Shown here: piece by piece, positions 27,019-62,996 of the stretch
How positions within the stretch are numbered: position 1 is the stretch's first letter
Layout: each line of letters starts with the position of its first letter
NCBI GenBank assembly: GCA_030062745.1
Contig: CP099839.1
Span: 10,476,118-10,540,117 of the forward strand
Length of the DNA stretch: 64,000 bases
Reading direction: 5' to 3'
Origin: Capitulum mitella
Lineage: Eukaryota; Arthropoda; Thecostraca; Pollicipedomorpha; Pollicipedidae
Translations under genes and position numbers: made by a program
Notes under the pieces: model-generated
What the model saw: the letters and a program-made list of their open reading frames with translations, nothing else
The model's database searches: none
What the model was told of the DNA's origin: nothing

Positions 27019-28602
27019 TCAGCGGTTGCGCGGCTCCATCTTGAGGAAGGCGCCGTCCTTCGGCCGCGTCAGGAAGGCGCTCATGTCGAGCGGCATGGGC
27101 GGCGGCGGAGTGCGCGGCCCCGGCTTCAGCGTGCTGTCCCGCAGCACGGCCACCAGTGCCACCTTCGCCTCGAACAGCGCGAACCGCATGGCGATGCAGT
27201 TGCGCGGCCCGCTGCCAAACGGGATGAAGGCGCACGGGTGACGCTTCTCCTTCTCTTCGGGTAGGAAGCGGTCCGGGTCGAAGCGCAGCGGGTCCGGGTA
27301 AATGTCCGGGTCTCGGTGGATGGCCAGCACGGGCACTTGGATCAGCAAGCCGCGCGGGATATGCACGTTCGTGCCCGGAAGCGTGTAGTCCTTGGAGCAC
27401 CGTCGCTCCAAGCGTATGGCCGGCGAGTACAGGCGCAGCGTCTCGCTCAGCACCCGGTCCACGTACGCCATCTCGGCGACGGCCTCGTAGGTCAGCTGGC
27501 CGCCGTGCTTCTCCAGGACGTCGTCGATCTCGCGCTGGGCGGCCCGCTGGCAGTCCGAGCTGGTGGCCAGCGAGTAGGCGGCGAACGTCAGCAGCGTGGC
27601 CGTCGTGTCGTACCCGGCGACGAAGAACAGCACGGCCTGGCTGACGATGCTGGAGTTGGTGAGAATGCGGTGGCCGTCCTTATCTCTGGAGTCCAGCAGG
27701 AGCTGCAGGTAGTCTTTCCGGGACGTTCCGCTCGATTCGCGGTGCCGAATCGTTCTGTTTACAGCACGTATGAAAAAGTCGCTCGAGGCCTCGTTTGGAT
27801 CGGGCAGTTTGAGTGCGATCCATTCCGGGAGCAACAGGAGTGCTATGATTCGAAAGAGAGCATACCCCTTGAAGGGCTTAAGGAAATTTCCTGCATGTCT
27901 CGCAAATTCGGTGTTCGGATCAATAAAGGAGTTGCAGTTTACGCCAAACGCACATGACGCGATGTTGTCCATGGTGAAGCGGCCAAATGCATCCTTGAGT
28001 TCGACTTCACCATGTTCTTCCATCTCCTGGAGCAGATATTTGCCAAGATTGGAGGCGTTGTCCAGGCACAGCTGGTGCATGGCCTTCAGCTTGCTCGAGG
28101 AGAATGTCGGTGACATCACCGCTCTCGTCTCCTTCCACACCTTACCGTTTACAACGGAGAGCATCTCTCTGAAGATTTCGCTTGTGATAAGGTCTCGGCG
28201 ATCTGTGAAATGCTCAAAGTCCTTGATAGTAATTGCGCGAATAAGATCCAAATCTCCTACAGTAAGTACAGGACGTGTCATCTCGATCCAGCCACAGTAT
28301 CGCTTGCCACCACACTGGTTGTACAGCCAGCTATCCAACATTATAATCGATCCACTTTCAATCTTGTTCTTCTTATAATCTATTCCGAATGGAAACTCAG
28401 CGGTAGGGCCCGGCACGCCTTGAGAAGGCCAGAAGTCGTAGTACCTTGTGAGGTAGTGGTACACGCCACCGACAACCAGCACCAGAACGGCGACCACCAG
28501 CGGGTTCAGAAGCCATGACGTCGCCCACGACAGCAATGAAAGCAGCGTACTCAGCAGCCAGCACGCCGCAGACCACAGTGCGGAGAACAGCGCGGCGATC
28601 AT
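27019..28602 (-). CDS. Cytochrome P450, CYP3 clan, intronless
   Basis: A haem-thiolate monooxygenase expected to sit in the ER membrane and oxidise small lipophilic compounds or hormones with electrons from P450 reductase. The 527-aa frame is complete from ATG to TGA, the normal length for a microsomal P450. Visible parts are a hydrophobic N-terminal anchor (about residues 31-51), a PGP hinge (64-66), helix C WKETR (156-160), helix I AGYDTT (329-334), ExxR as ETLR (387-390), the PERF-equivalent DPDRF (442-446), and the haem loop PFGSGPRNCIA with Cys469. The residue after Cys-Ile is Ala rather than the usual Gly. RNCIxMRFAL and the overall pattern point to the CYP3 clan (CYP3/6/9-like); I do not assign a subfamily. 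No intron interrupts it. GC content rises abruptly in the C-terminal half. It lies in the 20 kb segment absent from unit 2. Confidence 0.95.
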   Translation of the reverse strand: MIAALFSALWSAACWLLSTLLSLLSWATSWLLNPLVVAVLVLVVGGVYHYLTRYYDFWPSQGVPGPTAEFPFGIDYKKNKIESGSIIMLDSWLYNQCGGKRYCGWIEMTRPVLTVGDLDLIRAITIKDFEHFTDRRDLITSEIFREMLSVVNGKVWKETRAVMSPTFSSSKLKAMHQLCLDNASNLGKYLLQEMEEHGEVELKDAFGRFTMDNIASCAFGVNCNSFIDPNTEFARHAGNFLKPFKGYALFRIIALLLLPEWIALKLPDPNEASSDFFIRAVNRTIRHRESSGTSRKDYLQLLLDSRDKDGHRILTNSSIVSQAVLFFVAGYDTTATLLTFAAYSLATSSDCQRAAQREIDDVLEKHGGQLTYEAVAEMAYVDRVLSETLRLYSPAIRLERRCSKDYTLPGTNVHIPRGLLIQVPVLAIHRDPDIYPDPLRFDPDRFLPEEKEKRHPCAFIPFGSGPRNCIAMRFALFEAKVALVAVLRDSTLKPGPRTPPPPMPLDMSAFLTRPKDGAFLKMEPRNR

Positions 28603-29159
28603 TCCGTCTGACGCAGATTACAAGTATGTCGTCCGTCCGCGGCTCTCTTGCACGGGTGGCAGGATGACGTTGTCCTGAAATATCTCCAAAGAACGTCTCG
28701 TCAAAAACGTCGCCCGGTCTTGCTGTCACAACGCTTACCGGTCCGTCGTGTCCTTCCCGCGCGCGTCCTAACTCTCACGCTGACTGGGCATCGATTCAGC
28801 AGCAGTACGGCCTTGGGTGCACTCAGCCGCTAGGCCAGTGGCGTCGCCACGGCCACGACAGCGGGGGGAAACGACGCGTTCTGAGTCCTTTCTTTCCATG
28901 CATTATTACATGCATGGAATTTACATGCATGTTAAATTTTCCCGAGCGAAGTGCCAGGCCCCCCTCCTCCCACTGCACTCCCGCCATCCTTTTCCACTTC
29001 CGTGGCGCCGTTACTGGTGACCGCCGAAAGTTGCCGAGTCAGGGACCTAACGTAACTGTGTTTACCACTCGTTAGATGGCAGCACTGACGGATGACGGAG
29101 AAACACCTGGATGAATAGATCCACGCCGCATTTGAATGAGGCTAGCGGATAAATGCGGC
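28603..29159. other. Upstream region of the P450
   Basis: Contains the presumed P450 promoter. No TATA box is obvious to me. A small hairpin, TCCATGCAT/ATGCATGGA, lies at 28,896-28,919, about 300 bp upstream of the start codon. Confidence 0.35.
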
Positions 29160-31484: not shown

Positions 31485-31891
31485 AATCCTTTAGAAGCGC
31501 ACGCCATAAACCAAGCACAATGGATGACATATACGGCGCGCGTGGCAAAAGGAGACGTCAGCTGTTGCAAGAAAACAACATTATGCACTGGAGCTCCAGG
31601 GTCGTGGATCACCTACTGTTCGCTAACCTAACCTAACCTAACCTAACCTAACCTAACCTAACCTAACCTAACGTTTTGAAAAGGGAAGGCGTTCCAGAAT
31701 GCAGTAGCCAAAAGATAAGCTAGTATATGCCTACTGTGTAAAACAGGAGCGAATAGTAGGTGATCTACGACCCTGGAGCTCCAGTGCATAATGTTGTTGT
31801 TTCTTGCAACAGCTGACGTCTCCTTTTGCCACGCGCGCCGTATATGTGTCATCCAGTGTGCTTGGTTTATGGCGTGCGCTTCTAAAGGATT
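31485..31891. repeat. Inverted repeat with ~140-bp arms
   Basis: The left arm 31,485-31,624 is nearly identical to the reverse complement of 31,748-31,891, with a few mismatches and short indels. The 123-bp centre holds ten CTAAC units directly adjoining the left arm. Confidence 0.92.
31623..31672 (-). repeat. Interstitial telomere-type tract, (CTAAC)10
   Basis: Ten perfect CCTAA/TTAGG units. TTAGG is the canonical arthropod telomere repeat. Confidence 0.95.
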
Positions 31892-32164: not shown

Positions 32165-35100
32165 TTAGATGGTCCACACCTGTACCTTCTCAGCCACGAT
32201 GCACCAGTTGGCGTGATCATAATAGGACGAAACGATGTGCAGATTGTCGACGTATTTCTCGATGAGTCGGTCCAGTTCGCCCTCCCTGAACACGTGATAG
32301 TAGCGATGGTGGCCGAACGCGTCGCTCGGCGCCGGCTCCCCGGAGGACGCCTGGCCACCGGCGGCCTGGTCGTCCTCGCCGGCGGCCGCCGCCGCGTCCA
32401 GATCGGCCTCGGCCGGGTCGAGCGGATGTCCGGCCGACTGCGGCCGGGGCAGGCGTGTCGTCCGATCAACGGCCGGCGGGGAGCCGTCGGTCCGGCCCGC
32501 GGGGCTGTCCTCACTTTCACTCCCGCGTGACGCTGCCACGCTGGCAGGACACGAGCCGTCCGGCATTCGGCCGTACGAACTGGGCCTGGGCATCGGCAGC
32601 GAAGGCCTACGGTCAGAACTCGCGCTCAGGGCCCTCGCCGAAGGGCTGGGGCCAGGCCTCAGAGGACGTCTAGGGCCTGAACAGAGTCTGGTTGCCAGCG
32701 GCGAAGGGCTGAGGCCAGACCTCAGTGAAGGTCTGGGGTCTGGGCTGAGGCTGGGGATCAGCGGTGAAGGCCTAGGGTTTGACTTGACGCTTGGGGCCAG
32801 CGTTGGAGTGCTGGCACCAGACCTTAGTGGCGGTCTAGGGTCCGAGCCAAATCTGACGGCCAGTGGCAGAGGTTTGGAACCAGAGCAGCTCAGGCTAGGA
32901 GGCAGGGGTAAAGGTCTGACGATCAGCGGGGCATGTCCGCCAGCCAAGCTCCGTCGCCCCGTCTCTGTCACCTGCTCACTCCCGACAAAGAGTGTCACCA
33001 GCTCACTCCGGGTAGGAAATGTCACCAGCTCACTCTGGGCAAGGAGTGTTGCCTGCTCACTCCCGGCAGGGAGTGTCACCAGCTCACTCCGGGTAGGGAA
33101 TGTCACCAGCTCACTCTGGGCAAGGAGTGTCGCCTGCTCACTCCGGGCAGGGAGTGTTGCCTGCTCACTCTGGGCAGGGAGTGTCACCTGCTCACTCTGG
33201 GCAGGGAGTGTCACCTGCTCACTCCCGACAGGGAGTGTCACCTGCTCACTCTGGGCAGGGAGTGTCACCTGCTCACTGCCGGCAGGGACTGGCGCCAGCT
33301 CACTGTGGGCAGGAACTGCCTGGGGCGGGAGCACCTCTTCCAAAGGGTGTTGGAGAGGCGATGCGTGCAGCCGCGCCAGTGTCATCCGGCAGCGCCTGTC
33401 CTTACTGGCTGGCGCCACCATAGCCGACGTAGAATCGACCAAGCTCCAGTTCGTTTTTTCACAGCCAGTGGCTTGCCGAGGCTCGTCTATGACGCTGTCA
33501 TGTTTTTCATTTGGTGCTTCCAATAGACATGTTCCTTTCGAGTGATTAAATTCATGTGATATGGCTGCTGAAGCGCTGCGTTTGCTGGGAACACTATCGG
33601 ATTTATAAGTCTGTTTGGGGAACAATATCTGGGGCTCTCCCCTTCTCTGAGTCTCGGTCTTGCGGTCCATATAGAGCTCTCCCGTCCTCTCAATCTCGAT
33701 CGCACAGTCCATATCTCTCCTCCTCTGAGTCTTCATCTCGCGGTCTGTACGCGGCTCTCCCGTCCTCGGAGCCTCCATCCCACAGTCCGTGCGGGACTTC
33801 CCCGCCATCAGAGATTCTCCCGCACTTTTAGACTTGATCTGGCATTCAACATCAAGGTCCACCAGCGGCTCTAACGTTGCATGAATCATCAGCACCTCCG
33901 TCTGGAGGCCTGGCTCCGGCTCTATGTGAGCCTGGAGTTGCTGCAGTTCGATCTCGCGGTCCAGCTCCAGCAGCTCCTGCGGCGTCGGCCATTCGGCGGC
34001 CAGGCTGATGACGCTGCAGGCGCTGCTCGGACTGCTGGCGTCGCTGCTGGCGCACGAGCTCTCGCTGCCCAGGTCGTCCGTCTCCGGCTGAAACACTTCA
34101 AACGGCGGGCGGGCAGCCGCCGGGCCACGGGCCATCGGCGCAGCGAGCGCTTCCTGCGAGCCTGGTCGGCCGGTCATGTTCGCGCCTTGCCCCAGGTCAT
34201 GCGGAGACGGCGTGCGGCTGCCGGCAGCCGGCAGCGCGCAGACTCTGCTCACGCAGCGGCGGTCGACGCTCCCTGGCGCGGCCGGCGCGCCGACCGCCCC
34301 CAGCCGGACGTTGTTGTTGATGACGCTCTCCGACGGCGGCACGGCGGCGGCTGGCGGCCGGAGCCGGCTGTGGCCGGCCGCCGCCTGGTCCGTGTCCGGA
34401 GCACGGCCGGCCGCGTTGTTGTTCGCCGGGCAGGTGTGACAGCCGCTGCACGGGCATGACGCCGTGTTTGGCCGCGGGCCGGCCGGCGGCGGCCTGGTGC
34501 CGGGACCGACGGCCGCTGCCGGCTCTGCCACGGACAGAAGACGCTGGCCTCCGTCCAGCGGCGGCGCCGGCGGCGACAGCGCTCGACGCAGGCCGAGCCG
34601 GTCCAGGACGCCGCAGCCGCGCGGGGGCGACGGCAGCGGCACCGGAGCGCGCGGCGAGCGCGGCGACGAGCTGTCCGATGAGCCGCTGGAGATGGACCGA
34701 CCGCGGGGGCCGGCGGCCCGCTCGGCCGGCTCTAGCCTGTGCACGAACACGACGGACACGCAGCTGTCCTCCGAGTCCAGACTGGTGTCGCTCTGGAAGC
34801 TGTTCTCTTTGGAGCTGTCGGAGCCACTCTCGCGCGAGGCCCTGCGCTCCCTGGAGGTGCGCTGATACAAGTTACGCCGGTCTAGCCGAGGGCTGAGAGA
34901 TATGAGGTCGGTTCTGGACCACGAGCCGTATGTTTGTGTGTCAAAGTGGTCACTGAGCTCTGCCATGGACAAGATTCCATTGCTGCCATGATCAGCAACA
35001 AAGGTATGTCGTCTAGTATTCAGATCACGTCGATCTGAAGAGTACTCAAACACAAAGGCATCAGAGCACGTCCCATCATTCGCCAAGCTGTAGCCATCTT

Positions 35101-35909
35101 GCACTTCATGCATCGTTTCAACTGTGCTTTTTCTACGCGATGGCGTTGGACCACTCTGGGTCACTTTCTCTAAATCCTGGTTCAATTTGTCTGGATATTC
35201 TTGAACCACTTCCAGCGGCTTGTAAATGAGAGGGGATTCTGACCTCTCCTCTCCATGCACCAGATTGCCGTGCAATGCATTCTCATTCAGGCCGCGTTGC
35301 TGTCGAATCTGCGCCTGAATCATGTGACCCTGTTTCTCATTTTCCGATTGCCCCGGGCTCTCGTTCAGTGGCTTCCGATTGTCGCCGAGGCGCGGGGACT
35401 GGTCGGCCGGTGGGGTCACCTGGTGGCGCGTGACAGGCGCCTCCTGGCAGCGGCGCTGCCGGCCCAGCGCCGGCTCCTGGTTCGTCTGCGCCTCGGCTGC
35501 CCGCTCGCCGGCCTGGCGCGCCTCGTCCTCCAGCACGGTGGTGAGCGAAGTCCGGGCCGGCCCGCCGGACCGCTGTTCACTGTCGGCCGTCTGAGCGCTG
35601 CCGACGTCGGAGGACTGTTCGCCGGCGCGGCCCGGCTCGGCAGGCCGCGGCGGGCCGCGCACGGAGGCCGGCAGCACGCTCCACATGTCGCCCACGTTCA
35701 GCGAGCGGAAGGGCGGCCAGCGAACGGCCGCCGGCGTCGGCCGGCGGCGAGCAATCGAGCGTGTTCCGCCGCCGCGGCGCCTCCTCCAGACCAGTGACGT
35801 CATCCTCCAGACGGATCTCAATCAGCTGGTCGCCGTCGGTCGCCGCGTCAGCCGCCTTGGTGTGGGTGGCGTCCGGCCACGAGCCTGAGGCGCTGCGTCC
35901 GGCCAGCTT
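32165..35909 (-). CDS. TRMT9B-like protein, terminal exon
   Basis: Large last exon of a TRM9/ALKBH8-type tRNA-methyltransferase-like gene. The final ~45 residues read RYYHVFREGEL ... YYDHANWCIVAEK and match the conserved C-terminus of TRMT9B (human KIAA1456; Drosophila fire dancer). Before that lie some 1,150 residues that are almost entirely disordered: Ser/Pro/Arg-rich, with a 13-unit nonapeptide repeat. The predicted acceptor is ..TTGCTGCAG at 35,910, phase 0, joining exon 37,898-37,991. The first ~50 codons (IEIRLEDDVTGLEEAP) run in a different frame from the 1,200-codon body (WPPFRSLNVGDMWSVLP onwards), so an indel or micro-intron between about 35,690 and 35,760 must be assumed. The methyltransferase domain is not in this window. 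Invertebrate members with a long disordered insert are known; the function here is inferred from homology only. Confidence 0.75.
32957..33313 (-). repeat. 27-bp tandem repeat coding 13 nonapeptides
   Basis: In the TRMT9B frame the units follow SE(Q/L)(V/A)T(L/F)Pxx, thirteen in a row including degenerate end units. The period is a multiple of three and the frame stays open. A second, looser proline-rich repeat (units around PRPxLRSGxSP) covers roughly 32,570-32,900. Confidence 0.9.
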
Positions 35910-37897: not shown

Positions 37898-37991
37898 CAG
37901 CAGGGCGCGGCGCACGAAACTGTAGCACGTCTGGCCGGAAGGCGCCAGCTCCGCGGGGCTCTGGGACCCGCTGGTCACGGTCGGGTCGACG
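37898..37991 (-). CDS. TRMT9B-like protein, internal exon
   Basis: Acceptor GCTCACAG before 37,991 and donor GTGATG after 37,898. The 94 nt complete a split codon and then encode VDPTVTSGSQS ... QTCYSFVRRALL. The phases match both neighbours (phase 2 in, phase 0 out), which is the main support. The Cys-Tyr-Ser-Phe-x-x-x-Ala segment sits where human TRMT9B has its YGFYSTLGKSF segment. Confidence 0.65.
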
Positions 37992-38486: not shown

Positions 38487-38644
38487 CTGGCTGACTCGGC
38501 CGAGGCCGTGTCGCTGTTCCGCCTGAATGCGCTGCAGGCGACGGCGTCTTCGTCCAGTGCGGTCGAGAAGGCCTCCGGCTCGTCCGCGGACGCCTTTTTG
38601 GTGCTGCTGAGCGAACGGGGCTGTTCCCACGGCACCAGCACGTC
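38487..38644 (-). CDS. TRMT9B-like protein, exon with QDVLVPW motif
   Basis: The exon encodes DVLVPWEQPRS and 41 further codons up to SDTASAESA, ending in phase 2 at donor GTCAGT. QDVLVPW is a hallmark found just after the methyltransferase domain in TRMT9B and ALKBH8. The acceptor CTCAG/GACGTGCTGG at 38,645 is the last member of a 17-fold repeated acceptor array. The upstream exons with the AdoMet-binding motif are not found between here and the end of the window. Confidence 0.75.
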
Positions 38645-39205
38645 CTGAGACCCAAACTGCCGGCACAGATCAGGACGTCCTGAGACTCAACTGCCGGCAT
38701 AGACCAGCACGTCCTGAGACTCAACTGCCGGCACAGACCGGCATGTCCTGAGACTCAAGCTGCCGGCACAGATCAGGACGTCCTGAGACTCATCTGCCAA
38801 CACAGACCGGCACGTCCTGAGACTCAAACTGTTGGCACAGACCAGGGCGTCCTGAGACTCAACTGCCGGCATAGACCAGCACGTCCTGAGACTCAACTGC
38901 CGGCACAGATCAGGACGTCCTGAGACTCAACTGCCGGCATAGACCAGCACGTCCTGAGACTCAACTGCCGGCACAGATCAGGACGTCCTGAGACTCAACT
39001 GCCGGCATAGACCGGCACGTCCTGAGACTCAACTGCCGGCACAGACCGGCACGTCCTGAGACTCAAACTGTTGGCACGGACCAGGGCGTCCTGAGACTCA
39101 ACTGCCGGCATAGACCAGCACGTCCTGAGACTCAACTGCCGGCACAGACCGGCACGTCCTGAGACTCAAACTGTTGGCACAGACCAGGGCGTCCTGAGAC
39201 TCAAA
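38641..39205 (-). repeat. 34-bp minisatellite of a splice acceptor
   Basis: Seventeen copies of minus-strand GAGTCTCAGGACGTG (with variants) recur every 34-35 bp from 38,641 to about 39,190. The first copy is the genuine acceptor of the QDVLVPW exon. Units 34 bp long shift the frame by one base each; the 35-bp variants contain an extra T. Confidence 0.93.
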
Positions 39206-40029
39206 GACCCAGAAATGAGAAAAATGACCTATATCTTCATCTATGGGGCAGACAATGCCACACATATTCTGCGCTGAACAACCGTGGTTAACCACCGTGG
39301 CTTTCCTGGGCGCAGTTTTTAGCTCACTGTATTTTTAAAACTGCACAGGGAATTCGCGTATTCGCGTTCTGTGAACGTCATAACTCACAAACTCACATTC
39401 GTGCTTCTCAACACATCGGTTTATTAATCACTGCTCAATTATGTATGCCTGCATATTTTCAGGTCAATTAAAATTATTTGTCTCTCAGGAAAAAAAATGA
39501 AAAACTCCCGACATACCATACCACCGCAATTTCTCTAAAAGTGTTGCGTCTAAAGTTGTGAGTTTACAGCGAGCGTGAGATATTTCGGTAGATGACGGCG
39601 GCGCCACGGTAGGGCGGCGTCTGGTTTCCGATTGGTCGGCGGAGTCGCGGTCAGCGGGCCATGGTGCGCCCACATCGCAGCTGCCGGAAGACGTGTGCGT
39701 GTGTGTGCGCTCGCGGCACTCCGTTCTGTGGCACGCCCGGGTCCGGACGTTAGGGTCTCCCTCCATTCGGCCACCAGGCGTTCATTTAGGTGTGGGCTGG
39801 GGTTTGATTTAGACAACAGTTGACCAGGAGAAATTGTAATTGTGTGTTTGAGTGTAATGTAGCTTGGATAGTCAACAAAAAAAAGCCCAAACCTCGGGAT
39901 TTTCCCGTCCTTATGAACGGAGCTGACCGAGTCTGCTGTGCGGTGAGGGAATATTCTATCATTTACAGAAAAAGCCACCGCTGGCTGCAGGTCCTGGTCT
40001 CGGCAGCGCGTAAAGGCACGCTCCATCCA
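39206..40029. other. Non-coding spacer
   Basis: No exon recognised. A modest GC-rich patch at 39,590-39,780 has open frames on both strands without a known domain. I searched it for methyltransferase motifs and saw none. Confidence 0.45.
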
Positions 40030-40975
40030 GGCAATCGAGATACACAAGCGCAAAATTTGATTTTATCAGCTGTCAAAATACAATTTTTGCTTACGTATTC
40101 AGGTGTCAAGCGACTAAACATGGTTTACAATAACAAACAAATGAATACATGCATCCGAGACGTCATTTTTCATACAATGACTGACAACTACAGCCTACTT
40201 TACCAGCGATCCCTGGCCGAGCATTTATCGGTAATTATTTGACAGTTGACGGCGTTCCTTCCCCCCCCCCGTGAAAATCGCTAATGTCGGCTGAGCCAGC
40301 TCAACCAATCTCCAGACTACGTCTGGGGCTAGTTACCAAACTCATTCCCCATGACTTTAAAAATGCATGTATAGTTATCTAGCTTCGTGCCAGCCGCGAC
40401 ACATCCTCTATTTCTGATAAATTAGCCCGTCCTGATTTTTTTCCATCTTTGACCAAGCATTTTCACTCATCTGTCCATGAACAAGTTTATGTCCTGTTTA
40501 CTCTCTAGAATGGTATTTTTTTAATTAAAACCATTTGCATTAGTTACGACGTCACCGTGTGTTGACAAAACGGTTACCGTAACTGAAATCAGCGCCCTGG
40601 TGAGTTCCGCGAAAACGCCATTAAAAACAATGCACGTTTATTACGACATCGCTCGCGTAAGAAACATGGGTAAGAAAACTATGCATCAAAACAAATCGAT
40701 AAACAAGAGGATCTGCCGGCAGTGCGAGTTCGAGCGGTGCGCGGCGTGCCGGGCTACCGGCTGTGGACGAACACCGTGTCGTGCGAGTGGAGGCCGGCCT
40801 CGCGCAGCGTCTGGTCGGCCCGCTCCGGCGCCGAGAGCTCGCGCCGCGGGCACGCGGCCAGCAGCACGTGTTCGGCGGCCGGGTAGCCCAGGTGCTGGAC
40901 GTACTCGGTGACGCAGCGTAGCCGTGACGACGACGGCAACTGGAACTGGATTCGGCCGCCGTCGGGCACATTGCA
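40030..40975 (-). pseudogene. Truncated UBXN7 3' end (UBX domain part and 3' flank)
   Basis: Homologous to 57,240-58,195. The coding part, 40,754-40,975, keeps the TAG stop and about 70 residues, from PDGGRIQFQLPSSS to TVFVHSR. That is most of the UBX domain and nothing upstream of it. The p97-binding FPR motif is CPR here. The AATAAA poly(A) signal is kept (40,637-40,642). The copy stops exactly at the duplication junction, so it has no promoter, start codon or UBA/UAS domains. Confidence 0.9.
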
Positions 40976-41000
40976 CATTGCACATTGCACATCGGCACAT
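40976..41000. other. Tandem duplication junction with filler repeats
   Basis: UBX-domain sequence changes directly into ACOX3 downstream flank through several CACATTGCA repeats. The same flank in copy A (about 4,062-4,075) has only one related phrase, catcgcacaa. Confidence 0.75.
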
Positions 41001-41087
41001 TGCACAAATGACAAAGAAAATTATGAAATGCCGATATGCACTAGCATTCAGCGATATGTATTAATGAAAACATCCTGCCTCAATACA

Positions 41088-41090
<3 letters not shown>

Positions 41091-41134
<44 letters not shown>
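41091..41134. repeat. (AT)n microsatellite
   Basis: Uninterrupted (AT)n, homologous to the AT block of copy A at 4,155-4,396. Confidence 0.95.
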
Positions 41135-41139
<5 letters not shown>

Positions 41140-41214
41140 TAAAGCTAGCAAACAGATTCTTAAGTATACATTGATGGTTGAAAACTACAGCAAACTTGGC
41201 ACTGATGATCTTAA

Positions 41215-42433
41215 CCCCACCCCGACTGGGGGGGGGCAGTTGACTGCCCCCCCTGAGGTTTTTCTGGGATTGCGAGAGAACCAACAAACACAGAGTCACG
41301 AAACTTTGTGTACCTTTTGCTTCATCAATTTTGCATCTCGCGTCAAAATTTTGACCTCAGGTCAGGTCAGGTACCTGACCTAGGTCAGGTCAAACAGACC
41401 TATGTCCAAAAAAGTTTGGCGCCCTCTAACTTTTTCGGAAAACAAGATATCTCAATAATACTTTCAGGGATTAGTGAACCTGATAGATGCAACAAATCTG
41501 CTTATCTCAAATTTCTCGGAATTTTCCGGGTCATTGACCTAAGGTCAAGCCCATTTTTAACACGTCATCGTTTTTTTCGGAAATTGACGAAATATTTCAT
41601 AACATTTTCAGTGTGGAACCAAGCAGACATCTAGTTACCGTCATTAGACAAAGTATCAATGACTTCCAGCCATTGACCTGAGGTCAGGTCACGACTAACT
41701 GTAGTGAGCCAAAATGTATCACCGTCAAAACCGGCGATGAATCACTCAGAATGGGTGGAAAATGGCAGAACTGGCTAGCACAGACGTAAGCAATACCAGG
41801 AACCTCAAGAAAGTTTGAAAAAGTAGCATATTTTGGAAATGAACAGGCTCTCGCGAATAAAGCTCCGCCAGTTGTGTAAATTGGAAACTAATGATTTTTT
41901 TCAAAATTTAAGCATGAAAAACCATCACAAGAACTACTAAGATCAACAAAATATACAAAGATGGTCAATTTCCGCGAAAATAAAGGAACGCAAAAATTAG
42001 TTCCCGTCAATTTGTTACCGCATACGGCAGCAGCGCACGCCTAGCAGCTGCCACGAGAAATGCCGTGTCTTTAACTCAACGTTTCGGCGTATGTATTGAA
42101 CAAATCTGGGAAATTAGACGTGTATCGGCATCCGCGGACCTTTGCTTGTGCGCTGGTACATTTACCTATGCGTTACAGCTCTTGAGATTCAGGCCATTTC
42201 TCGGTCTCGTGCAGTCGGCTATAAGAAAACATATATAGGGCGTAAATTGCTTACATATTATCTAAAACTAAAATTGAGACCAGTTTCGAACTCTACTCGT
42301 CACAGGCTTTCCAACGGTATGCTTATTTTCATCGTGCAACCAACCGTCCGTGAGTTAGAGGGGGGCGGCCAACCTTCGAAACGGTTGGCCGCCAGTCGCC
42401 CATGTTCGAAACGGACCGACGGTCGTGCGCGGG
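41215..42433. mobile_element. TTAA-flanked piggyBac-like MITE, copy 2
   Basis: 1,219 bp, CCC...GGG ends, perfect TTAA duplications at 41,211-41,214 and 42,434-42,437. The uninterrupted target is seen in copy A at 4,472-4,475. It is homologous to 2,632-3,832 in the same orientation, with one difference at the right end: the G-run/CAGTCAACTG hairpin is replaced by a CGGCCAACC/GGTTGGCCG hairpin around 42,366-42,392. No transposase frame. Confidence 0.88.
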
Positions 42434-42694
42434 TTAATTTGAAACAGTGGTAACACGATCACCAGCATTCTGTGCATTAGGCCCGCAAGGTCGTGATGGA
42501 TGGTACCTATGTATGTATGTATGTATGAATGAATGTATGTGTGCATTTGAATCTCTGGGCCACACATGTTGGCTTTTACGGCCCAGCGTCTAATACATTT
42601 AAAGGCAATGACAATGGTATTAAAAGGTCAAGGACATGATAATCACTGCATGATGATATATGACACATCATGAAAATAATGGACGCGTTGGCCT

Positions 42695-42830
<136 letters not shown>

Positions 42831-44119
42831 TCGGTATCCGTGTCACGGAAATAGTTGGATTACAAAAACTACGTTGTGAAAAGAATGACAGTGGAGGGCG
42901 AAATACGTTACGTGGTCATGGAAGGCTCACAGACAAACCTTTTTATTGTTACTTAAATCACACAAAACAGCAGAATACAGGACCGCGATACGGTCACCGC
43001 AAAGGACCGGAAACACTACCGATTTTTGAAAACATCCGCTTAAGACGGCCAACAACGACGAATCGTTCCCTGAAAACCCATCGTGCCGTCCCATGACTCG
43101 ACATCGCAGTCACTTCCAGGGTCAAGGCATCTATTTGCACTACTGGCTTGAAAAATAAGCGGAACCAAACGACCCCAAAGCATGCAATCACAGCCTAATT
43201 CACTGGGATTCAGTTGTGGACTTCCCCGTGAAAAGCACAGCCTAGTTGGCAATAGCAGCGCTTGAGTAGGTCAGTCGTGTTTCCCGTGCTCTGGTTTGCG
43301 ACTTTCAGTCAGTCATTTTCCCATTAGCATTACTCTTTGCTGAGTTTATTTCATCCAGTTACTGTTGAGCACTGTTGTGAGTCGTGAGTGAACAGCCAAC
43401 GATATGTATAGTCGTGATATGATATAGATCTGGCAGAAAACGGAGCTACCATTCAATTTATTATGACAAATGGAGACATTTTGCGTCACGGTTTACACTT
43501 TAACGACATTGTAGTAGTTCCCTTTTCTTGTCGTCATTTGGACGGCAAAATAATATTTTTATCAGACAGAATAATATATTTGCCATAGGAAATATTCTTC
43601 ATCAGTTTCCGGTAACAACTCCATGATACGCACCACAGCCTAAGCCTTCGACATACATATCGACAGGATCAACAATATCGAGCGTCCGTTGTTTTGGTCG
43701 ACAGTCACGCCCGCCGGAGCACTGTACCTGTCACGGGGTCCAAGATCGACTGCCTTTGTCTGGCTCAGGTTCTTAATTGTTACCAAGTGTTCTGGTGCAC
43801 TGACGATCGGCAGATGAATTCATTCAGTGTTGATATCGGGTAACATTGTCTGATGCTGACATCTGTCACACTTCTCGGCGTCAGGCGTGACGCTGAATCA
43901 AAGGAGATCAAAAACATGTGTTACGGGGGGGGGTATATATGTTACATCTCCATCGGTATAACCCGACCTACCTCCAAATGTTGATTTCTTTGCATTAAAA
44001 AAGTGTTCCGTGGACAAAAAATGCGCTTCCGTCCGCAAACGGGGCCAGAAGGCACGTGGGTCCTCCTTTTCCATGAATGGGACCCATAGCCCGGATGCCA
44101 ACCCCCCCCCTTCCCCGAT

Positions 44120-44159
44120 ACTGGACGCCGTTGCCAGTACGCTGGCAACGGCGTCCAGT
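44120..44159. repeat. Perfect 18-bp-arm hairpin
   Basis: ACTGGACGCCGTTGCCAG, then loop TACG, then its exact reverse complement. Copy A (6,059-6,089) has lost most of the left arm. Confidence 0.95.
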
Positions 44160-44889
44160 TACGATAGCAAGACTTCTTTGTAATGTTACAATGCGATAAA
44201 TTCCGCCTTTTGGCTGGAGACAAAATTAGACATTCTATGGCAATGATCATACGAATTTGTGGGACAAAGGCCAGCGCATTATGTCCCTTGGCAAACTTCC
44301 GTTCGCACAGTTTTGGGTTTTGCCAGCGAGGATTTCAGCCATGCCCCCGGTGAACAAAGGAAGCTTCCAAGCATTACAAACAGATACTCTTGCTAAATTA
44401 CATAAAAGAAAAATGAATGAAGTTAATCAGTACTTGCAAGCGAACTGGCTAAAAAAAAACCGAATTTTTATGGAGGCAACCGCTTCACTGCAGCGTCCAA
44501 GGAAAGGATGCCTTCTTCAAAGTTGGCTAATTTAATTTAGTTCGATTTTCTTGAGAATAAAACTACAGAGAAGTTATTTGTCTTTCTAAGAATTTCGTAT
44601 GTATCTAACTTGCCCGAAGCCCAAATACATCACCCGACTTTGTTAACAAAACCGTATGGCTTGTATCGCTACCCTACAAAATATAAAGCATCAAAATTCA
44701 AAACTGATTTCAGTCAATGCGCGTTAGTCACCAGTCCACTCAGCCCGTCCGCACGAAATGGTCAATGAAAGCATTTGCACCTGACGACTGAAGAGTGCAT
44801 GCCCACTATGCAAGCGTCACGTCCGCTACATAATCGTGCTGGTCGTTATCGCGTGGTTGCAGTCGCGTGCCAAGTAACCGTGTGTGTTC

Positions 44890-45420
44890 ACCGCACTGTG
44901 AGTGCATGGATGCACACGCGTAAGCGTGCGCATCCAAGGCCCCGCACGCGTTCATGCGCGAGCCTCTCACGAGTGGTATCCGCAGTCTGTGCGTGCGGAC
45001 GCGTCGGCGCGTGTTAGGACGCCGCCGTCGCCGGCCGGCTTGGGTCGGCGGAGTGACAGGAAGACCGGCGGCCGCCTTCACGGTGCGCAGCCAAGGCCAG
45101 CGCGCCGGAACCGCCGCCGGACAGCGCCGTCAGCGTGACAGCGCGGTTTGAGTTCTACCGTGTTCCCATGACTCCGGGGAGAGGGTCAGCGGAGGGACGG
45201 CCGGCGTCCGAACGGGGGAAGGAACTCGGCTCCGTGTTTGGCCGCAGTAACGGCAGCAGTTATGGGAACGGTGCGGTGCGGAGCGGACGTGAAGGTCGGT
45301 GGCACGAGCCGACAGACCTTGCGCCCGTGACCACTGGGCGCCAGGAAGACGTTCGTGACGCGGCAACGGGCGGCGTGACCACACGGACTGGCATCGCCTG
45401 ACATCACGTCACGATCGTCA
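44890..45420. promoter_or_regulatory. CpG-island-like GC-rich segment (copy B)
   Basis: Counterpart of 6,850-7,350, again dense in CpG in AT-rich surroundings. Indels (for example an extra ~24 bp near 44,935) change the frames relative to copy A, arguing against a conserved protein. Confidence 0.3.
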
Positions 45421-47618
45421 CGCCAACGACACAAAGCCACACAGCTTCTGTTATGAGGCGGTGTTGTAAACAAACGATGACCAGTCAGTTAAGCGGAGTT
45501 CCGCATTTCTTACGCAGATTCCGCATTTCCTAGGCCATTTCCACAACAGACACGGCGATTTTCAGCTAACTACAATGCACATTGTAAAAAAGGCGTGAGT
45601 TATACTGATATTCCAGTTTATTGTGCTACAACCCGTAGAACGACAGCGAAAGCCTGGGAGACCTTGGGAGGACATCAGACAACACTTGCAATGACCGTTA
45701 GTTACAGTTCACACAGCAATGATCTGTATTCGGCATTTGCTGCACACATTGCAAAGTGGGTCTCGACATTGAGGACAAGGCAAAACTTCATAATTTCGTA
45801 AAACTTCGGAAAATATGCTTCGGAAAACGCCCATTCATCACGCAGGTGGATCATCAAGACCGTCAAAAGTTCTTCGAATTCGTAGAGCTGACTGAAAACA
45901 ATCTCACAGTCTGTCGTCACAAGCGCCCTACAGTAAAAGCACAGGACTTCCATATATTGTCAGCAGTCTGGCTGGTAAACGTTATTTAGCATGATAAACA
46001 GACAACTCGGGATGGATTCTCAACATGCCGTCCATGACCGCGAACGTTTAAAGTATTTCAAATTTGATATTATACTGTTTCAGACATCTCTTTTGTAACC
46101 ATTTTCCTTTTCACAACAGACAAACGCACAGACTTGACGACATTCTTTTCCATACACTTAAGTTTTGTGGTCACGAAATTTCATGATATGTATCGGGAAA
46201 GATGGACAAGGCACCGGTACGACAAAACAGAACGAACAAAAATTAAAGAAATAGAGGAAGCCACGAAGTTGTACGCAATATAGTTCGTCTGGCCATGTGG
46301 AGTTCGTCTGACCACAACAATGCACATACGCAAACAACAGTTTTTTTCAATTTCGGTAATACAGGAAATGAAATTTCAAACGAGCGTTGTCTCCAGGCTT
46401 CCAATGAAGGAAGAATGCCAGCACAGAAAGGTCAAACCATAACAGAGTGCCTTGTGACAATTTCCAGCCAGCGAAACGTGTAAGTGCACGGAAAAGTTCC
46501 AGGTTGAGAAAAACAAGGCGTTACAGCAGCCGCGATGTGCTGTTAAATTCGTAACGAACCTAGTCCAAGAAAATCGTTCCTTTCGCTCAGTGCGGGCACC
46601 TGGACACTATTACACGAGAAATCGGACAAGTACGTATACATTATCATGTGACTCTGACGGCACGCAGAAGGTCCTTAATCGTCCAAAAAGTTCGGCACCT
46701 GGGCGAAATTATTCCTAATTCGGATTCACTGCACACCGAGGTCAGCGTCTCCCCTGGAAGCACTGTTGAGCATGGACTATATCAACGCCGTCCACCCCAA
46801 ACCTTTAGATAATATACACACACACATATATATAACGAAAAATTTAAAACAAGAGCAAGGTGTACCCGAAATTCTGCATGCCGACCGCATTTCAACGGAC
46901 AGCTACCGCATTCCATGTAAATTTGAGGGGTCTTTTGATTAAGAAAAAAATATCGAATGTCGTTTATGGCTGATGCACCGAAGACATTCGGCCATAATCG
47001 ACACTTGATGAGCAGGTCACTGCGCCTGAGAGGGTTTCAAAACCAAAGTGTCCAGTGCCGCCAAAACACCTAGATGGTGATAGCGGATCGTTTTTGTATC
47101 GTGCAATTCCCAAGAAAAGTGTGACTGACTTCCGACATCCCTCAAATATGTGCGCCTATTACCGATTACTTGGTCTGTTCAGCCATCAACTACTGCATGC
47201 CGTATAACAAGATGATTAACACCAATCTGCAATCAGTCATGGACTACAATCACTTTGACACTGGGCAGCTTTGCATGATGTGAGAAAACTATACAATCAA
47301 ATTCTTCCCCGATATAAAACCTGTACCCACACCCACAACGCGACGAGTTTCAGACCTACAGCTGATCACACTCACACTGGATCAGCGTGAGATAACTGTC
47401 CGTAATTTCAGAAATACATCGACGAGGCACCGCGGCCTTATCATATCATCAACGCCTTCCAGGCGTCTGGCCCCATTTCAGTGAGCAACAACTCTGCCGG
47501 TGATAGGCGACGGTCGCCAGCACCGCCGGGACCAGACACCTTGACTCCAGACAGAGCGGCGGCAGTGGCACAGAGTGGCACGGTGTCACGGTCTCTGGCG
47601 ACACCCGGCCGTCCTGGT

Positions 47619-49545
47619 CTACAGCTTGCCCCTGAGCTGGGTGCACAACTGCCACCAGTCCGGCCTCTGCGTGCATCCGGGAGTCGAAAGGAACGACTGG
47701 AAGATCCTCTCGTATATCTGAAACAGCGGTGACTGGTAAGAAAACGGACGTCAAGAGCTAAATGTTAGCAAAAATCAAGTGAAATAATGTCGCATAAAAA
47801 TGTTGCTTAAATCCTACTGGTGATATATAAATTACAACACATATGGGCAAATTTAGAACCAAAATTATGCTACGTGGACAAACGTCTAAGTTATCATGGT
47901 GTGCCTGGTGTTAGCAGATAACGACCTAACCGTTTTCGTTTTCCTTTCTCGTCACATACAAAACATGTTCACAAGAAAGCACCGCGCTGTTACATCTTTA
48001 CGAACAGCATTGTCAGCTCCCTACAGTAGTCGCTTCTATGCCCGGACAGGTTCCTCATGGCAAAGGCCGTCTAATGACCTTTCCGTCTGAATGAACAAGG
48101 TGGGAATGACTCCGTGTCACTCTAGGTGACCCAGACGCGTACAAGTTCTGCCGCCCAGAGCCCAAGACGTTCTCGCCGACCACCGACCTGTCCGTCCGAG
48201 TGTCCCAGACACGAGTCCAGCACGAAGTCGTCGGGCGCCATCACGTCCACCAGCGTGATCACCTCCGGCTTCAGCTCCGAGCACAGGTCGCGGATGCTCT
48301 GCTGCATCTGGATGACCTGCGGCCCGCTCAGGTACGAACCTGCCGCACGGGACAGTGGGGCGATTTACGGGGCGTCGATTGTTGGGTCAATGGGAAGTTC
48401 AAGCAAAACTCCCGCCACCAGATGGCTCAGCGTGCCGAAGCCATGGATAGAAAGAAGAGGTCTACGTATTAAGTCCTGATACTGGTACTTTAAATTTCAA
48501 ATCCATACCTTCACATCTAATATCCTTGCGTGTCTAGGCAAAATACACCGTTAGTAAACGTGAGTTTGGGCAATTGTCGGGCACATACTGGACAAGGGCG
48601 GTCAGTTGCAGGGATAAATTACGTTCAGGTCTTTCTAAAATTAACACTACGAGACGAAGATTATCGAGAGTAACTTATTTAAAGACATGCAAAACAGATA
48701 AGCTTTAGTTTTTTAACGACGCCCATCATTCCGCTCCATTTCTTGGACCTAAATTTTGTCCAGCTTGTGTGGGTATTCAAGCGCCAGCGACGTACCTCGA
48801 CTATCGAAATCGCACAATGCGCTATTTAAAAATTTGCGATGGAGTAAATAAAAATTGGACCTTTTCGCCGACTAACAATCGTATTGTGGTCATCAATGTA
48901 TCCGTAATCAATATTTTTGCCAATATGTTTGGTTAGCGAGTCTGACCTGAAAATTCTGAGCTATAAACATCTCACTCTTTAACCCTCAGAGCCGCCTAAA
49001 TTTATCTCCTTACTAGCAGCGATTTACTCACAGGGGAGAATGAGTTGCAATGAGGAAGAAGGAAGTAAATCGCAGGAGGCTAAGTAACCGCCGAGGATAC
49101 CAAAGCACCTGACAACGTGCCACCCGATGAGAAGGACGTAGTGGAACGGGAAACGTGCATCAAATGCACGCATGGAAAAAGGCACAGATGGCCTCGAACC
49201 TAGCTGAGGAGAGGTGCATGTGCCAGTACTTCGTACGAAAAACTAGGGGTGGCCGGGTAAACATACCTGCGGCCAGGAAGGTCATGTATTTGGTCTCCAG
49301 GCACCAGAGGCCGTACAGCACGGCCAGCTGGGTCAGCACGCGGCGAGTGGCCTCATCGGGAGCGGTGGCCAGCTTGTCCGAGAACCGACGCAGGGCAAAC
49401 AGCTGAAAACAAAAGAGAGGGGGACGTCAGCGGCGACAGGAAGCTCGTGATCGGCCTAACGCAGTAAAAAGACTGTCTTTTTTAAGATCGCGACCGACCT
49501 CACTAAATGCTGGAATTCAGAAGCCGTCCAGACGCAGCAGTGTCG

Positions 49546-49642
<97 letters not shown>

Positions 49643-52600
49643 TAGATATATATTGCGAGGGGAAATTCCAATTTGCGATTTACCCCAACTGCTTTTAACG
49701 TTATTCTGGCCACGGCAACCAAATGCGCAACACAATATCTACCACATGATCATACGAGCGCCAGAACACAACGCAAGCCTATCCCGCAATGCTGCAAGTT
49801 CACATCAGATCTCTCTACAGCCCAGCCCGTCCGGGGCCGCGAAGCTGAGCATGCGTGCTCTGACCTCGATGAAGGCGGTGGCCAGCGGCCGGGCGCCGTG
49901 CACCTGGACGTGGTTGCGCGCCTGTCGTTCGGGGCCCTCCAGCCGCGCCAGCCGCGCCTCCACCGAGCTGAGCAGGTGGCGCACCAGCCACTCGAACGCG
50001 TCCGTCACGACTGGGGACGGGCGGCGCAGCGGTGGGAGGAGCGGGTGCCGTCGGTGGCCGCGAGACCGGCGCCAGCACTGTACAGTATACAGTCTGACTG
50101 CCAGACTGACTACACAGTACAGTCTGACCTGCGATTATCCCCACACCTTCCAGCAGAGACCGTCAAGAGTGTGATATGAACCGGGACACTCAAGGTCTGG
50201 AGTTTTTTCGTCAATTTCGTCCGGATGTTTGCGTACCGTTATGTTTCAACGAACAGCACATGCAACCTCGAGATTTTCCACATACTGTACGTCCTACGAC
50301 CCATCGCGCAATGCTCGGCAACGACTAGTTTTGTGGCGAAAGCTAGATGTGCCATCAAAAACACAACACACCCCTGTAATGTCACCACGATCCGTTCTAG
50401 GCTAGCGATCTCAGTTGGTAAGGACATCGAGTCCACTTACCACTTAGCCGTTGGAAACTTAAACAGTCGCACCCCCTAAATACAACGTTGAACAACACAC
50501 CATCATCCACTGCAACAGCCCTTGACCCGGCTCCCGCAGGTCCGCAGGTTCCCAGCGGCGCCGACCGGCGTCCGCTCTCGCCGTGCACTCACACTGCAGG
50601 GAGCCGGTGTCAGCGCCGGCCGGACAGCGTGCCGGGCCGCCGCCCCGCTTCAGGAAGTCGATCGAGTGCAGCGGTGAGCTGGCCACCGGCATCCGCTCGA
50701 CGCGCAGCAGGAAGTTGCCCAGCTGCTGGATCAGCACGTTGTTGTCGCCCTCGTACGTCAGGCAGGCGTCCTGGTCGTTGCGGATGTCGCCCAGCCGGCC
50801 GGCTGCAGGACAAACGGGACGCTGCATGCAACGCCAGTGCGCAGCATCGATGGAACGAGGCGGGTGGAAAATGGATCCACAGCTTAGCGCGGTGTGCAAT
50901 CCCTGAATATACAGCAAAATACAACTCCTTTCAAGTTATTACGAGTTCTTCAGGACCCTTAAATCTAGCCATGTGCAAAAACATTTAAATGTGATTTCAT
51001 TCGACTATTTCGACCGCAAATTAGCAAATCAGCCGTAAGAGTCTTTATTCTGCCTCTTCTGGGGCCCAAAATCGGTCTCGGAGCCCAATTCGGTAATGTT
51101 CCTCCCTCCTGACACCGGAAGGCCCAGCCCTAACCGGGACATGTCCGTCGCCTGACCTGAGAGGTAGCCGTGTCCGCCGCACGCCTCGCGACACTCCTGT
51201 ATGCAGTCGCGCGCCAGCCAGCCCGACACCGGCTTGGTGCCCGACGACAGAGCGTGGATCTCCGCCGCCAGCAGAGCCTGCGCGCACAGATCGGTCCGGC
51301 GTCTGACAGCGGCCCGGCACAGAGGTAGGAGCGTCCTCTGACAATGCCTGGGCGCACGGATCGGCGATTCATTTCACAGTGGTGGGAAAGAGCGGCACAG
51401 GCATCTTCTGACAGTGGATGAACAGTCAGGCTGGTACATTCTCTCGTGTCCACTATACAAAACGTCAGCACATTCTATGACGATAGCCACACGCTGAAGT
51501 CAGCCTATCATCTCCAACGACTGGTCGCGACAGTCATTACCTCTTAGGAAATACAAGTAGAGATATGGAGCACAATTCAACGCAAAGCGAGTGATGTACA
51601 TGGCGTGGATCGCCGGAGGACATAAAAAATGGCAGCTGGTGATAACGGTCGCTGGTTTGAAAACGTACGTCGCAAATACTGCATCTATTCAAAGTACGAC
51701 TCCTGCACAATGTTTATATCGAAGGAAGGGATAAGATAGAGCGGTACCTTACCATTTCGGCTGCCTTGTCTCCAGAGTACTTCCGCTTAACAAATCCTGC
51801 GAAAACTTCATTCAGGTATACGGCAAGGTGGTACCAGACGTAAGTACCGCCCAGATACGGAAACAGCCGCCATTGCTGAAAAGGACGGACCACGTAAGGA
51901 AACGACCTTTTGTTTCCCATGCTATTAAACAAGGCGTTCACGCAACCATCGCCTCACTCTTTAAGATCTTTTGCCCTGATAGCCTTTTTACACGACCATT
52001 TTCATGTTTCTCTCCAACCTTGTGATCTTTGTTGGTGATCGGGGCGGTCCTGCCGTCGTCACGTGTGCCGACCTTGGATTCAGGCAGAGCCGTTCCCGCC
52101 ATCATTTAGTTTTAGCCATCACAGTGTTATTTTAACGTCGGGGCTGAGCAGCCGACCCCGGGCGCAGATCGGATTTCAGGCCGACATGTGCGGCGGCGTC
52201 GGGGGCAGTCGGCGTCGGCGGCAGTCGGAAATAAAGCGTGGAGACGTTGAGACGCGTGTGTCAGCCTGGCGGGCGAAGGGTCGTCGAGACGCAGCCAGGC
52301 TAGGCGGATGTCCAATCATACCACAAACCTGAAAACGTTACCGGTGACCAGGTCTTACAGGCTAAAAAATACATCATGACGATGTAACTGAAAACCACCA
52401 AACAAGCTTGCCTTGAAATCAAACAACCCAAGGAATAGGGTATCGATGACTGGGGAAGCAGATGGGTTACAGTCAAACCCGGCTGGCGCCACAGGCCGCA
52501 GTCCAGACAGACTCACCACCAGCGGGTACTCGACAGCCAGCCCCAGTGACCGCTCCCTCCGGACTCACCACCAGCGGGTACTCGACGGCCAGCCCCAGTG

Positions 52601-55600
52601 ACCGTTCCCTCCAGACAGACTCACCATCAGCGGGTACTTGACAGCCAGCCCCAGTGACCGTTCCCTCCAAACTCACCACCAGCGGGTACTCAATGACCGG
52701 CGTCTCGGAGTCGCCGTCGCCGAACTGACGGCGCGCGGCGCAGTAGCGCAGAGCGATGGTGAGCGCGCGGCGCAGGTCCACCTGGCACATGAACGTGATG
52801 CCCACCCGGCCGCCGGAGAGGGCGCCCAGCGACGAGGCTGTTCGCGGAGTGGGGGACAGTCAGCTGACATGGGATTCGACGGACGCCGCCCGAGAGGAGC
52901 AGACATCTCCGCAGTCCGACTCAAAACTGCACATGCGCATAGCCTCACTTTGTGGACCAAATCTGTGTACTGTAGAATCAAAACCGAAAGTCCAATGAAC
53001 AGCACGCGAACGAAATCACTATGTTGGTCATCCTGGAATTAGGGTTGCACGGTTTACGAGAGTCATCAGAGATTAAAAAATAAGCGCCCACTTTGATCCG
53101 TGTGGACCCAAATCCAGCTGCCACCCTCAGCAAGGCAAACTACCGTGCCGACTAGCATTTCACATGGCTTTTGCGGCAACAGAACTTACCAAACCTAACG
53201 TTGCTGTCCTTGATCGGAGAAACATACTGGCCCTCTTCCGTGACGTCACCGTTCTTGTTCAGCAGGTTCTCACGAGGAATACGGTAGTTATCGAACATCA
53301 CAAACCTAAAATGACAGCATGAAAAGTAAAATTAACTGGGCCACATGTTACATCCATACCGCAATCATAACTATGAGCTCGTATAACACGCGTTAAACAT
53401 CAATGACGCCTACTAGTTCTCCGCAAATGTTTAAGCAACAGTTAACATGAAATCTTATATAGCACATATAACAATAACATAATGGTATGTTTCCTGGTCG
53501 ACACTACCATCACATCATTTAGCCTCCTCCACACCCGACGCCAGTCCGCGGCAGTCTGGCTGTTCCCCGCCCTGTCCTGCCTCGGTCCGGGCCGGGTACT
53601 GACCCGTTGTCGAGGCCGTTCAGCCCGAGCTTGTGGCCCATGTCGCCGACCGTGACGCCCGGGTACGCCCGCTGGGTGGCCGGGTCGCGGATCGGCACCA
53701 CGAACGCGTGCAGGCCGTGGCCGGCGCCGTCGGCCGTGTGCAGCTGGGCGAACACTATCGCCAGACAGCTGGTCTGACCTGCGGCCGGGCAGCGGGCGCC
53801 GTCACCAGACGGCGCGCAGAGGCGCACAGCCGACGACCAACGGCACTGCGCGAGGTCAGACGAGCCGCCGCGCTCGGATCGGCGGCCGTCCCAGCCAAGG
53901 GCTGTATCATGCGTGGAGGTTTTGCCAGCGACAATAAACATTGGAATGGTACTTCCTACCGAAACACATCAGTCCTGTTCACATCTGTTCATTTTGAAAA
54001 TGGCCTATAGTGTCACAGCCTGCCAGAAAAGGAAAGACTTCGACAAGAAGTCACCGATATAACCAGTTTCAAACAGTATCTGACCATCCCGCCCTCCGTA
54101 AGACGGCACGCTCCACACGACCCCCTTCATTCACTGCAGAGCCACACCCGCCACACCTCACTCACCGAGCCCTCCGACCCAGCACTTGGCGGCACGAACG
54201 TCCGGCGTGTGCAGCACAAACTGGCCGCTAGATGGCTCGTACGTCGCGGTGGTGCGCATCCGGCGCGTGTCGGAGCCGTGCGCGAGCTCCGTTAGCGCGA
54301 AACAGCAGGTGGTCTGCGGAGGGTCGGCGGCCGGCGACAGAGGAACAGCCAGCCAGGGCGTCAGAGACCAGTTGGCACGCATTAACAAGCCAGGATCTTT
54401 TTGTCATGAGTGCGTACGTGCGAGTGCCTCCGTTTCGCCTGACTTCAGTTCTAGATGTCACGGAAAAATAATTCTACCCAGGACTTCCTTAAAGACGACG
54501 TTGCTTTTTAATCCCAGATATGCTTCAGCATGTCTCATCATATTCAATTACATCTCACTACATGTTTTCTAATGTGTAAATGACAAACAGAAGCAGAATA
54601 ACTATACTATCAATCACAATAGCGATTTGGATGCAAGAGATGCATGTAAACCAGTACGAATGGGATTCATGTGGGAAACACAGGATTCGAGTCAAAGAGC
54701 TGCAAAGAAGCAACTAGATTCCTATAACAGGTTATAAGGCAAGTGATATAGGTTAGAAGACCTGTGAAACACATGTCTCACCAGACCCACCTTCCTCTCC
54801 ATGAAATCTTGCATGATGCCAAGATGGCGGTCCGTGCCCATTCCCGTAACGGTCATCAATGGCATGTTAAACAACAGTGAATTCTTAATCTGCAAAGACC
54901 AGCTATAACTTCCTAAAACTTCTAAAGTCATCAGTCCCTGGAACAGCAGAATGCAAAATCTGTAAATCTGGCAATAATGCAGGAACCAATAACTACTGTG
55001 CTAGATAAAAAGAGGAGGCTGGCACCCATTAATATCACCAACCAGAGTCAACATTTTCGAACTTGCCTTTTCCTGCAAATATGAGGGGGAAAACTGGAAA
55101 ATGCAACACAAACAACAAACACCTGTGCACATTGTGGCCAAATTCAGCCAGTTGGGTGTCTGGGGCGTAGATATCTATTCATGCTACTGAATACCTTTGC
55201 TGCTAGGCTTTCTGGCAGCTGCAATGCAACTCCCCTCATCTGAGACCAACCAATCAACATTCAGTAGAGGACATTGCCAAGCTGGTGTCTAACTTGCTCC
55301 AGGCAATACAAAGCAAATGGGCAGGTCTGGATGCATGAAGGGTGCAGAGATCAATGGAGAGGCAGCCACTAACCAGAGGTGGCGATTCGGAGCCTTGGCA
55401 GGAAGAAGTCTGACAGCATGAATTTCAATCTACATCCTTGACCCCTAACTGACTGAAACTGGCCACACTGCCTGTGCAAGTCATTCTTTCAGACAAAAAT
55501 GCAATGGTGGGAGTACATTTTTCTCTCACTCTCCTTGTCTATCCAAGTGAATACTATCCAAGTGGATATAACTCTGTGATGAATACACCCACAGAATGAC

Positions 55601-57065: not shown

Positions 57066-57170
57066 AGCTGATTATTAAAACATTCGCAGTGAGTGCGTAA
57101 TCACCGATATCAAAAACGGGTTTTTCACGCTGATATACGGGGTTCGTCTAATAATCTTCCTTTCAGGTTG

Positions 57171-57866
57171 ACAAATATGGCTCCCTACAGTCAAAACATC
57201 AGAGGAAATGGGCTGCCAATTTTAATTTTTCAGTCGGGACACGCAAGTGCAAAATTCGATTTTATCAGCAAAATCAAAATACAATTTTTGCCTACGTATT
57301 CAGATGTCAAGCGACTAGACACGGTTTACAATAATTAACGAATTAATACAAGCATCAGAGAAGGCATTTTTTTGCAATGACTGAAAACTACAACCTATTT
57401 TTACCAGCGATCCCTGACCGAGCATTTATCGGTAGTTATTTGACAGTTGATGGCGTTCCTTCTCCCCCTCCCCAAAAAAAGACACACATTCTTTTCCCTT
57501 GTGGGAATTGCTAATGTCGGCTGAGCCACCTCAACCAATCTCCAGACGACGTCTGGGCCTAGTTACCAGACTCATTCCCCATGCCATGCATGTATAGTTA
57601 TCCAGCTTCGTGCCAGGCGCGACACATCCCGTGCTTTTGATAAATTAGCCCGTCCTAAATTTCCCCCCCCCATCTTTGACCAGGCATTTCCACTCACCTG
57701 TCCATGAATAAGTTTATGTCCTGTTTATTCTCTAGAATGCTATTTTTTGTTTTTGTTTGAAACCATTCGCATTAGCTACGACGTCACCGTGCGTTGTCAA
57801 AACGGTTACCGTGACTAATCAGCGCCCCGGTGAGTTCCTCGAAAACACCACTAAAAACAACGCATG
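57171..57866. other. Boundary of copy B and UBXN7 3' flank
   Basis: Within about 70 bp (57,170-57,240) homology switches from the end of ACOX3-A (19.59 kb) to the UBXN7 downstream flank (40.03 kb). The 20.4 kb present in unit 1 is missing at this point. Confidence 0.7.
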
Positions 57867-62944: not shown

Positions 62945-62965
62945 GTACTATTATTATTATTATTA

Positions 62966-62996
<31 letters not shown>

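Follow-up and report, generated by a model that had tools for sequence, protein, structure and literature searches.

Minisatellites that lie across exon-intron borders and carry an AG or GT splice signal in their units are known as 'mirages', of which Canestro et al. (2002) is said to be the original report. In two later sources, amphioxus mirages are described for Adh3 and the globins BflGb6 and BflGb9 (PMC3087553), to which PGBD5 and TnC are added (PMC3902484), and the authors conclude that the arrays seem not to disturb regular splicing (PMC3087553). In human, internal tandem repeats, some of them at exon-intron boundaries, alter the gene structure of paralogues in segmental duplications (PMC2812944). 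Here we describe a minisatellite at positions 38634-39204 of a 64,000-nucleotide stretch of contig CP099839.1 (the window), in which 17 copies of a splice acceptor precede a predicted exon of a TRMT9B-like gene. Judged by analogy with amphioxus, this array is a further example of a known oddity and not a new mechanism.

The splice-acceptor minisatellite is real and well formed. We found 17 exact TCTCAG sites on the minus strand, with first exon-like bases running from 39193 to 38644, and the 16 units that separate them measured 34 nt (11/16) or 35 nt (5/16), for a total of 549 nt. The initial annotation, which had proposed 17 tandem acceptors in a 34-35-bp unit that also holds the first codons of the exon (DVLV), was thus confirmed. 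The unit consists of some 12 nt from the end of the intron (TTTGAGTCTCAG), some 11 nt from the start of the exon (GACGTGCTGGT) and a 12-nt piece (CTGTGCCGGCAG), for which no exact copy, and hence no source, was found elsewhere in the window. Tandem Repeats Finder (TRF) scored the array at 845, 852 and 895 for periods of 34, 69 and 103, respectively. Since unit variants recurred as pairs and triplets when the units were dissected, the array appears to have expanded block-wise. The last TCTCAG adjoins GACGTGCTGGTGCCGTGG, which encodes DVLVPW, the start of exon 38644-38487. A minisatellite-like tandem repeat therefore crosses an exon-intron border, itself predicted from sequence, and splice signals lie within its units, as they do in two arrays of a duplicated oxidase gene described below (11 and four GTGAGT). 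The features of this locus are as follows.

38634-39204, minus strand: minisatellite of a 34/35-bp unit, 16.6 copies, with 17 TCTCAG acceptors, 16 of them spare (TRF and unit dissection).
38487-38644, minus strand: TRMT9B-like exon (exon 1), DVLVPWEQPRSL...SAESA, 158 nt, acceptor assumed to be phase 0, donor GTCAGT (from the sequence and a human motif).
37898-37991, minus strand: predicted next TRMT9B-like exon (exon 2), SVDPTV...CYSFVRRALL, joining in frame, acceptor at the 56th percentile.
32168-35909, minus strand: predicted last TRMT9B-like exon or exons (exon 3), C-terminus RYYHVFREGEL...NWCIVAEK, with an apparent 1-nt frame change at about 35.72 kb.
39194-39240, minus strand: end of the intron, holding its native pyrimidine tract, ahead of the farthest acceptor (copy 1, first exon-like base 39193), which scores at the 96th percentile.
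38645-38656, minus strand: 12-nt alternative exon start, acceptor GGCAG/TTTGGG, giving FGSQDVLVPW (AG scan).

Sites were given relative scores with splice-site matrices, expressed as percentiles among the AGs or GTs of the minus strand (3440 AGs for acceptors); the donor at 38487 reached the 99th percentile. Exons 1 and 2 joined in frame as DVLVPWEQ...SAESASVDPTV...CYSFVRRALL, and the frame ran on into KLAGRS at 35909. At the C-terminus, 27 of 46 residues were identical to human TRMT9B (E 1.4e-12). Both the DVLVPW motif and the RYYHVFREGEL...NWCIVAEK C-terminus expected of TRMT9B from the human sequence were present, and the gene looks TRMT9B-like, an identity backed by this C-terminus. The same C-terminal open frame contains a coding minisatellite (27 bp, 12.9 copies, nine codons each, 32966-33313). 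This array and the acceptor array have the 10-mer ACTGCCGGCA in common, and a palindrome-bearing 9-mer, TGCCGGCAG, is present also at other sites in the window.

We consider it probable that the acceptor array is a mirage-type minisatellite, a by-product of repeat instability that splicing tolerates, and not a regulatory device. It would have begun with a tandem duplication that spanned the TRMT9B-like exon's 3' splice site, and slippage or unequal exchange may then have brought it to 17 acceptors, partly by blocks of two and three units. Splicing would pass over most of the spares and take the last copy (38644 or 38656), whose use is expected because no other copy would yield productive mRNA, each leading to a frameshift or a premature stop, while wrong products would presumably be cleared by nonsense-mediated decay (NMD). 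We favour this explanation because 17 acceptors in 34/35-nt units show a block pattern with periods of 34, 69 and 103; because predicted exon 1 is in frame with exon 2 and the reading frame carries on into exon 3; because the joined flanks give a pyrimidine-rich acceptor; because 15 of the 16 spares meet a stop and the sixteenth shifts the frame, if the intron is phase 0; and because homologous donor arrays in the two oxidase copies carry 11 versus four donors. Moreover, arrays of the same class in amphioxus seem, from their authors' data, not to interfere with regular splicing (PMC3087553).

As for the sites themselves, the array split the old acceptor, so that the native pyrimidine tract of the intron today lies ahead of copy 1, the farthest one (39193), and joining the flanks across the array yielded an acceptor with a pyrimidine-rich end. 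With a phase-0 intron assumed throughout (CAG/GAC), nine of the 16 spare acceptors shifted the frame and seven kept it, all seven running into a stop; a stop was met before 38487 from 15 of the 16, and the remaining one (copy 16) was out of frame. This corrects the earlier statement that most spare acceptors shift the frame; the spares are harmful, as it implied, but stops within the repeat count as much as frame. The array has 48 AGs upstream of 38644, and of these just one, at 38656, was in frame and open, adding FGSQ to the exon.

Several results, concerning first the acceptors and then the gene, weigh against tolerated splicing in a working gene. The top-scoring acceptor was the farthest copy, 39193 (96th percentile of AGs), the use of which leads to a stop after 31 codons; copies 2-17 reached only the 68th-82nd percentile, with the exon-proximal 38644 at the 79th, and given these low scores normal splicing at the array is not assured. 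The acceptors picked for the oxidase exons ranged from the 77th to the 100th percentile and that of TRMT9B-like exon 2 stood at the 56th; since 38644 falls within the former range and above the latter, the last copy is a weak site that could still serve. A stop downstream of the strongest-scoring acceptor is also what would be seen if the array regulated TRMT9B through decoy acceptors, with splicing to poison copies lowering the mRNA. We regard this as very improbable: special RNA structure was unsupported once units had been shuffled and re-tiled. A structure masking the spare acceptors was rejected on the same ground: the array with short flanks was much more stable than its 20 dinucleotide shuffles (z -5.99), but the consensus unit, shuffled and re-tiled eight times, equalled or exceeded the array's stability in 65 of 200 cases (z -0.30). 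Acceptor accessibility in the RNA did not distinguish copy 17 from the other copies. In the TRMT9B array, DNA folds of three stretches gave z -1.65, -1.28 and -3.95, and that of the oxidase array 0.19, values that share the shuffle flaw of the RNA folds.

The points that concern the gene itself also favour another account, in which the TRMT9B-like exon is part of a gene fragment, dead or truncated, that remained after the segmental duplication and the array grew as splicing no longer mattered. A Pfam search of the C-terminal frame and exon 38644-38487 named no family. The pattern for S-adenosylmethionine (SAM)-binding motif I was unmatched in six frames of the window, although weaker motif patterns had scattered matches. 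On the minus strand, 39206-57200 and 59640-64000 gave no Pfam methyltransferase, but a domain divided among short exons might escape detection. The frame of exon 3 apparently shifts by 1 nt at about 35.72 kb (KLAGRS... to RSLNVGDMW...), where no GT-AG intron was seen by eye (about 35720); the shift may stem from an indel, from an error in the sequence or from an unseen intron. Duplicated oxidase and UBX gene pieces surround the TRMT9B-like gene. The gene may be broken, and the array would then be harmless, as nothing would depend on it. We hold this account to be possible, though rather unlikely, given that one frame runs across the joins of predicted exons 1, 2 and 3, that a 1218-codon open frame ends in the well-kept C-terminus (27/46), that upstream methyltransferase exons may lie beyond the window end at 64000, and that the sister donor array resides in oxidase genes with open exons.

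The array offers a natural experiment on how the spliceosome selects one of 17 near-identical acceptors. Different predictions follow from scanning, from exon definition and from NMD filtering, because the farthest copy has the native pyrimidine tract and the exon-proximal copy is without it. The most useful point is thus mechanistic: with a pyrimidine tract parted from its exon, acceptor choice becomes a clean question for RNA data.

The acceptor array was also said to be the mirror image of an array in an unrelated gene of the window, and this was upheld by the following minisatellites of a duplicated acyl-CoA oxidase gene.

14434-15010, minus strand: 52-56-bp minisatellite at the end of an exon in acyl-CoA oxidase copy A, carrying 11 GTGAGT donors (TRF).
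52509-52691, minus strand: the same donor minisatellite in tandem copy B, with four donors (TRF).

The joined oxidase exons matched nine PDB acyl-CoA oxidase sequences (E 2.9e-67 to 2.8e-52) and contained Pfam ACOX domains; the subtype is putatively 3 (ACOX3). The gene is tandemly duplicated (2627-19564 and 41210-57149), with pieces about 85-98% identical and the stretch holding the donor array about 95% identical between copies A and B, and its exons are open in both copies. Since copy A has 11 donors and copy B four, one ancestral donor array must have grown or shrunk in one of the copies or in both, each gene keeping the exon. These paralogous arrays are the best evidence here that splice-border arrays are unstable and tolerated. 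Around the copy B donor array (52476-52859), the exon frame is open beyond all four donors, and read-through would therefore add coding sequence up to the first stop.

The presence of arrays at two unrelated borders, an acceptor and a donor, within one 64-kb window, together with the several amphioxus genes reported to carry such arrays (PMC3087553, PMC3902484), might point to a lineage-wide process that starts tandem duplications preferentially at exon-intron borders; the initial annotation had suggested a process that initiates them there. We examined this with three independent arrays, 47 predicted borders and a 571-bp segment placed at random. From 36 TRF rows we dropped oxidase copy B (homologous to copy A and hence not independent), microsatellites, repeats with roughly two copies, an AT-rich array with a 92-bp unit (2.5 copies) and another with a 12-bp unit (3.3 copies). 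Borders were hand-picked from predictions, a few of them not top-scoring sites, and the N-terminal oxidase exons were left out, for which reason the chance probabilities are if anything too low. A random segment touched a border with a probability of 0.23 in the window and 0.56 in gene spans, and at least two of three independent arrays would do so by chance with a probability of 0.12 (window) or 0.52 (gene spans); the third array, 32966-33313, sits within an exon. A border-seeking duplication process is not supported by the window alone, and we judge it improbable. A core motif common to the TRMT9B and oxidase units was likewise discarded, the longest same-strand string being AGACTCA (seven bases), no better than chance (probability of at least seven in shuffled units, 0.21).

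Set beside amphioxus, the TRMT9B array probably differs in its host: mirages there belong to cephalochordates, whereas TTAGG arrays here hint at an arthropod, perhaps a crustacean, TTAGG being the arthropod telomere repeat. Regular splicing despite the repeats is reported there and predicted here. Length instability may be common to both, judging from the oxidase paralogues (11 versus four), the TRMT9B array being known from one allele. In the AGGT duplication model, introns are gained by tandem genomic duplication; the duplicated piece likewise bears splice-site sequence, but a new intron is made there, whereas the present array multiplies an acceptor that already existed, with no sign of a new intron. 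The 34/35-bp unit lies within the range given for Adh3 (10-72 bp), and its 17 acceptors exceed the six and three repeat units of two BflGb6 haplotypes (PMC3087553, PMC3902484). The human repeats are alike in being minisatellites of about 30-bp units that differ between paralogues, some at exon-intron boundaries, and unlike in their host and in that gene changes were judged from transcripts (PMC2812944). Among the matches listed in the open-licence literature, no arthropod mirage was recognised from titles and abstract openings. If the host is an arthropod, mirages, described in amphioxus (PMC3087553, PMC3902484), would reach another phylum. It is conceivable, if doubtful, that minisatellites at splice borders recur throughout the genome in a non-chordate lineage, having originated separately from those of amphioxus, and that ten or more working splice-site copies in tandem are routinely tolerated by spliceosomal genes of some genomes.

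The roughly 20 kb between the oxidase copies hold the TRMT9B-like gene and a cytochrome P450 frame, uninterrupted at 27022-28617 (Pfam p450, E 3.7e-84). The 3' end of a UBX-domain gene is duplicated too (40032-40968 and 57231-58198), with a truncated copy at 40276-40968; the UBA/thioredoxin-like/UBX frame at 57987-59639, presumably UBXN7-like, is uninterrupted over 551 codons from stop to stop. Interstitial (TTAGG)n/(CCTAA)n runs span 31627-31671 and recur between 62509 and 62754; the window shows no CpG depletion (observed/expected 0.98).
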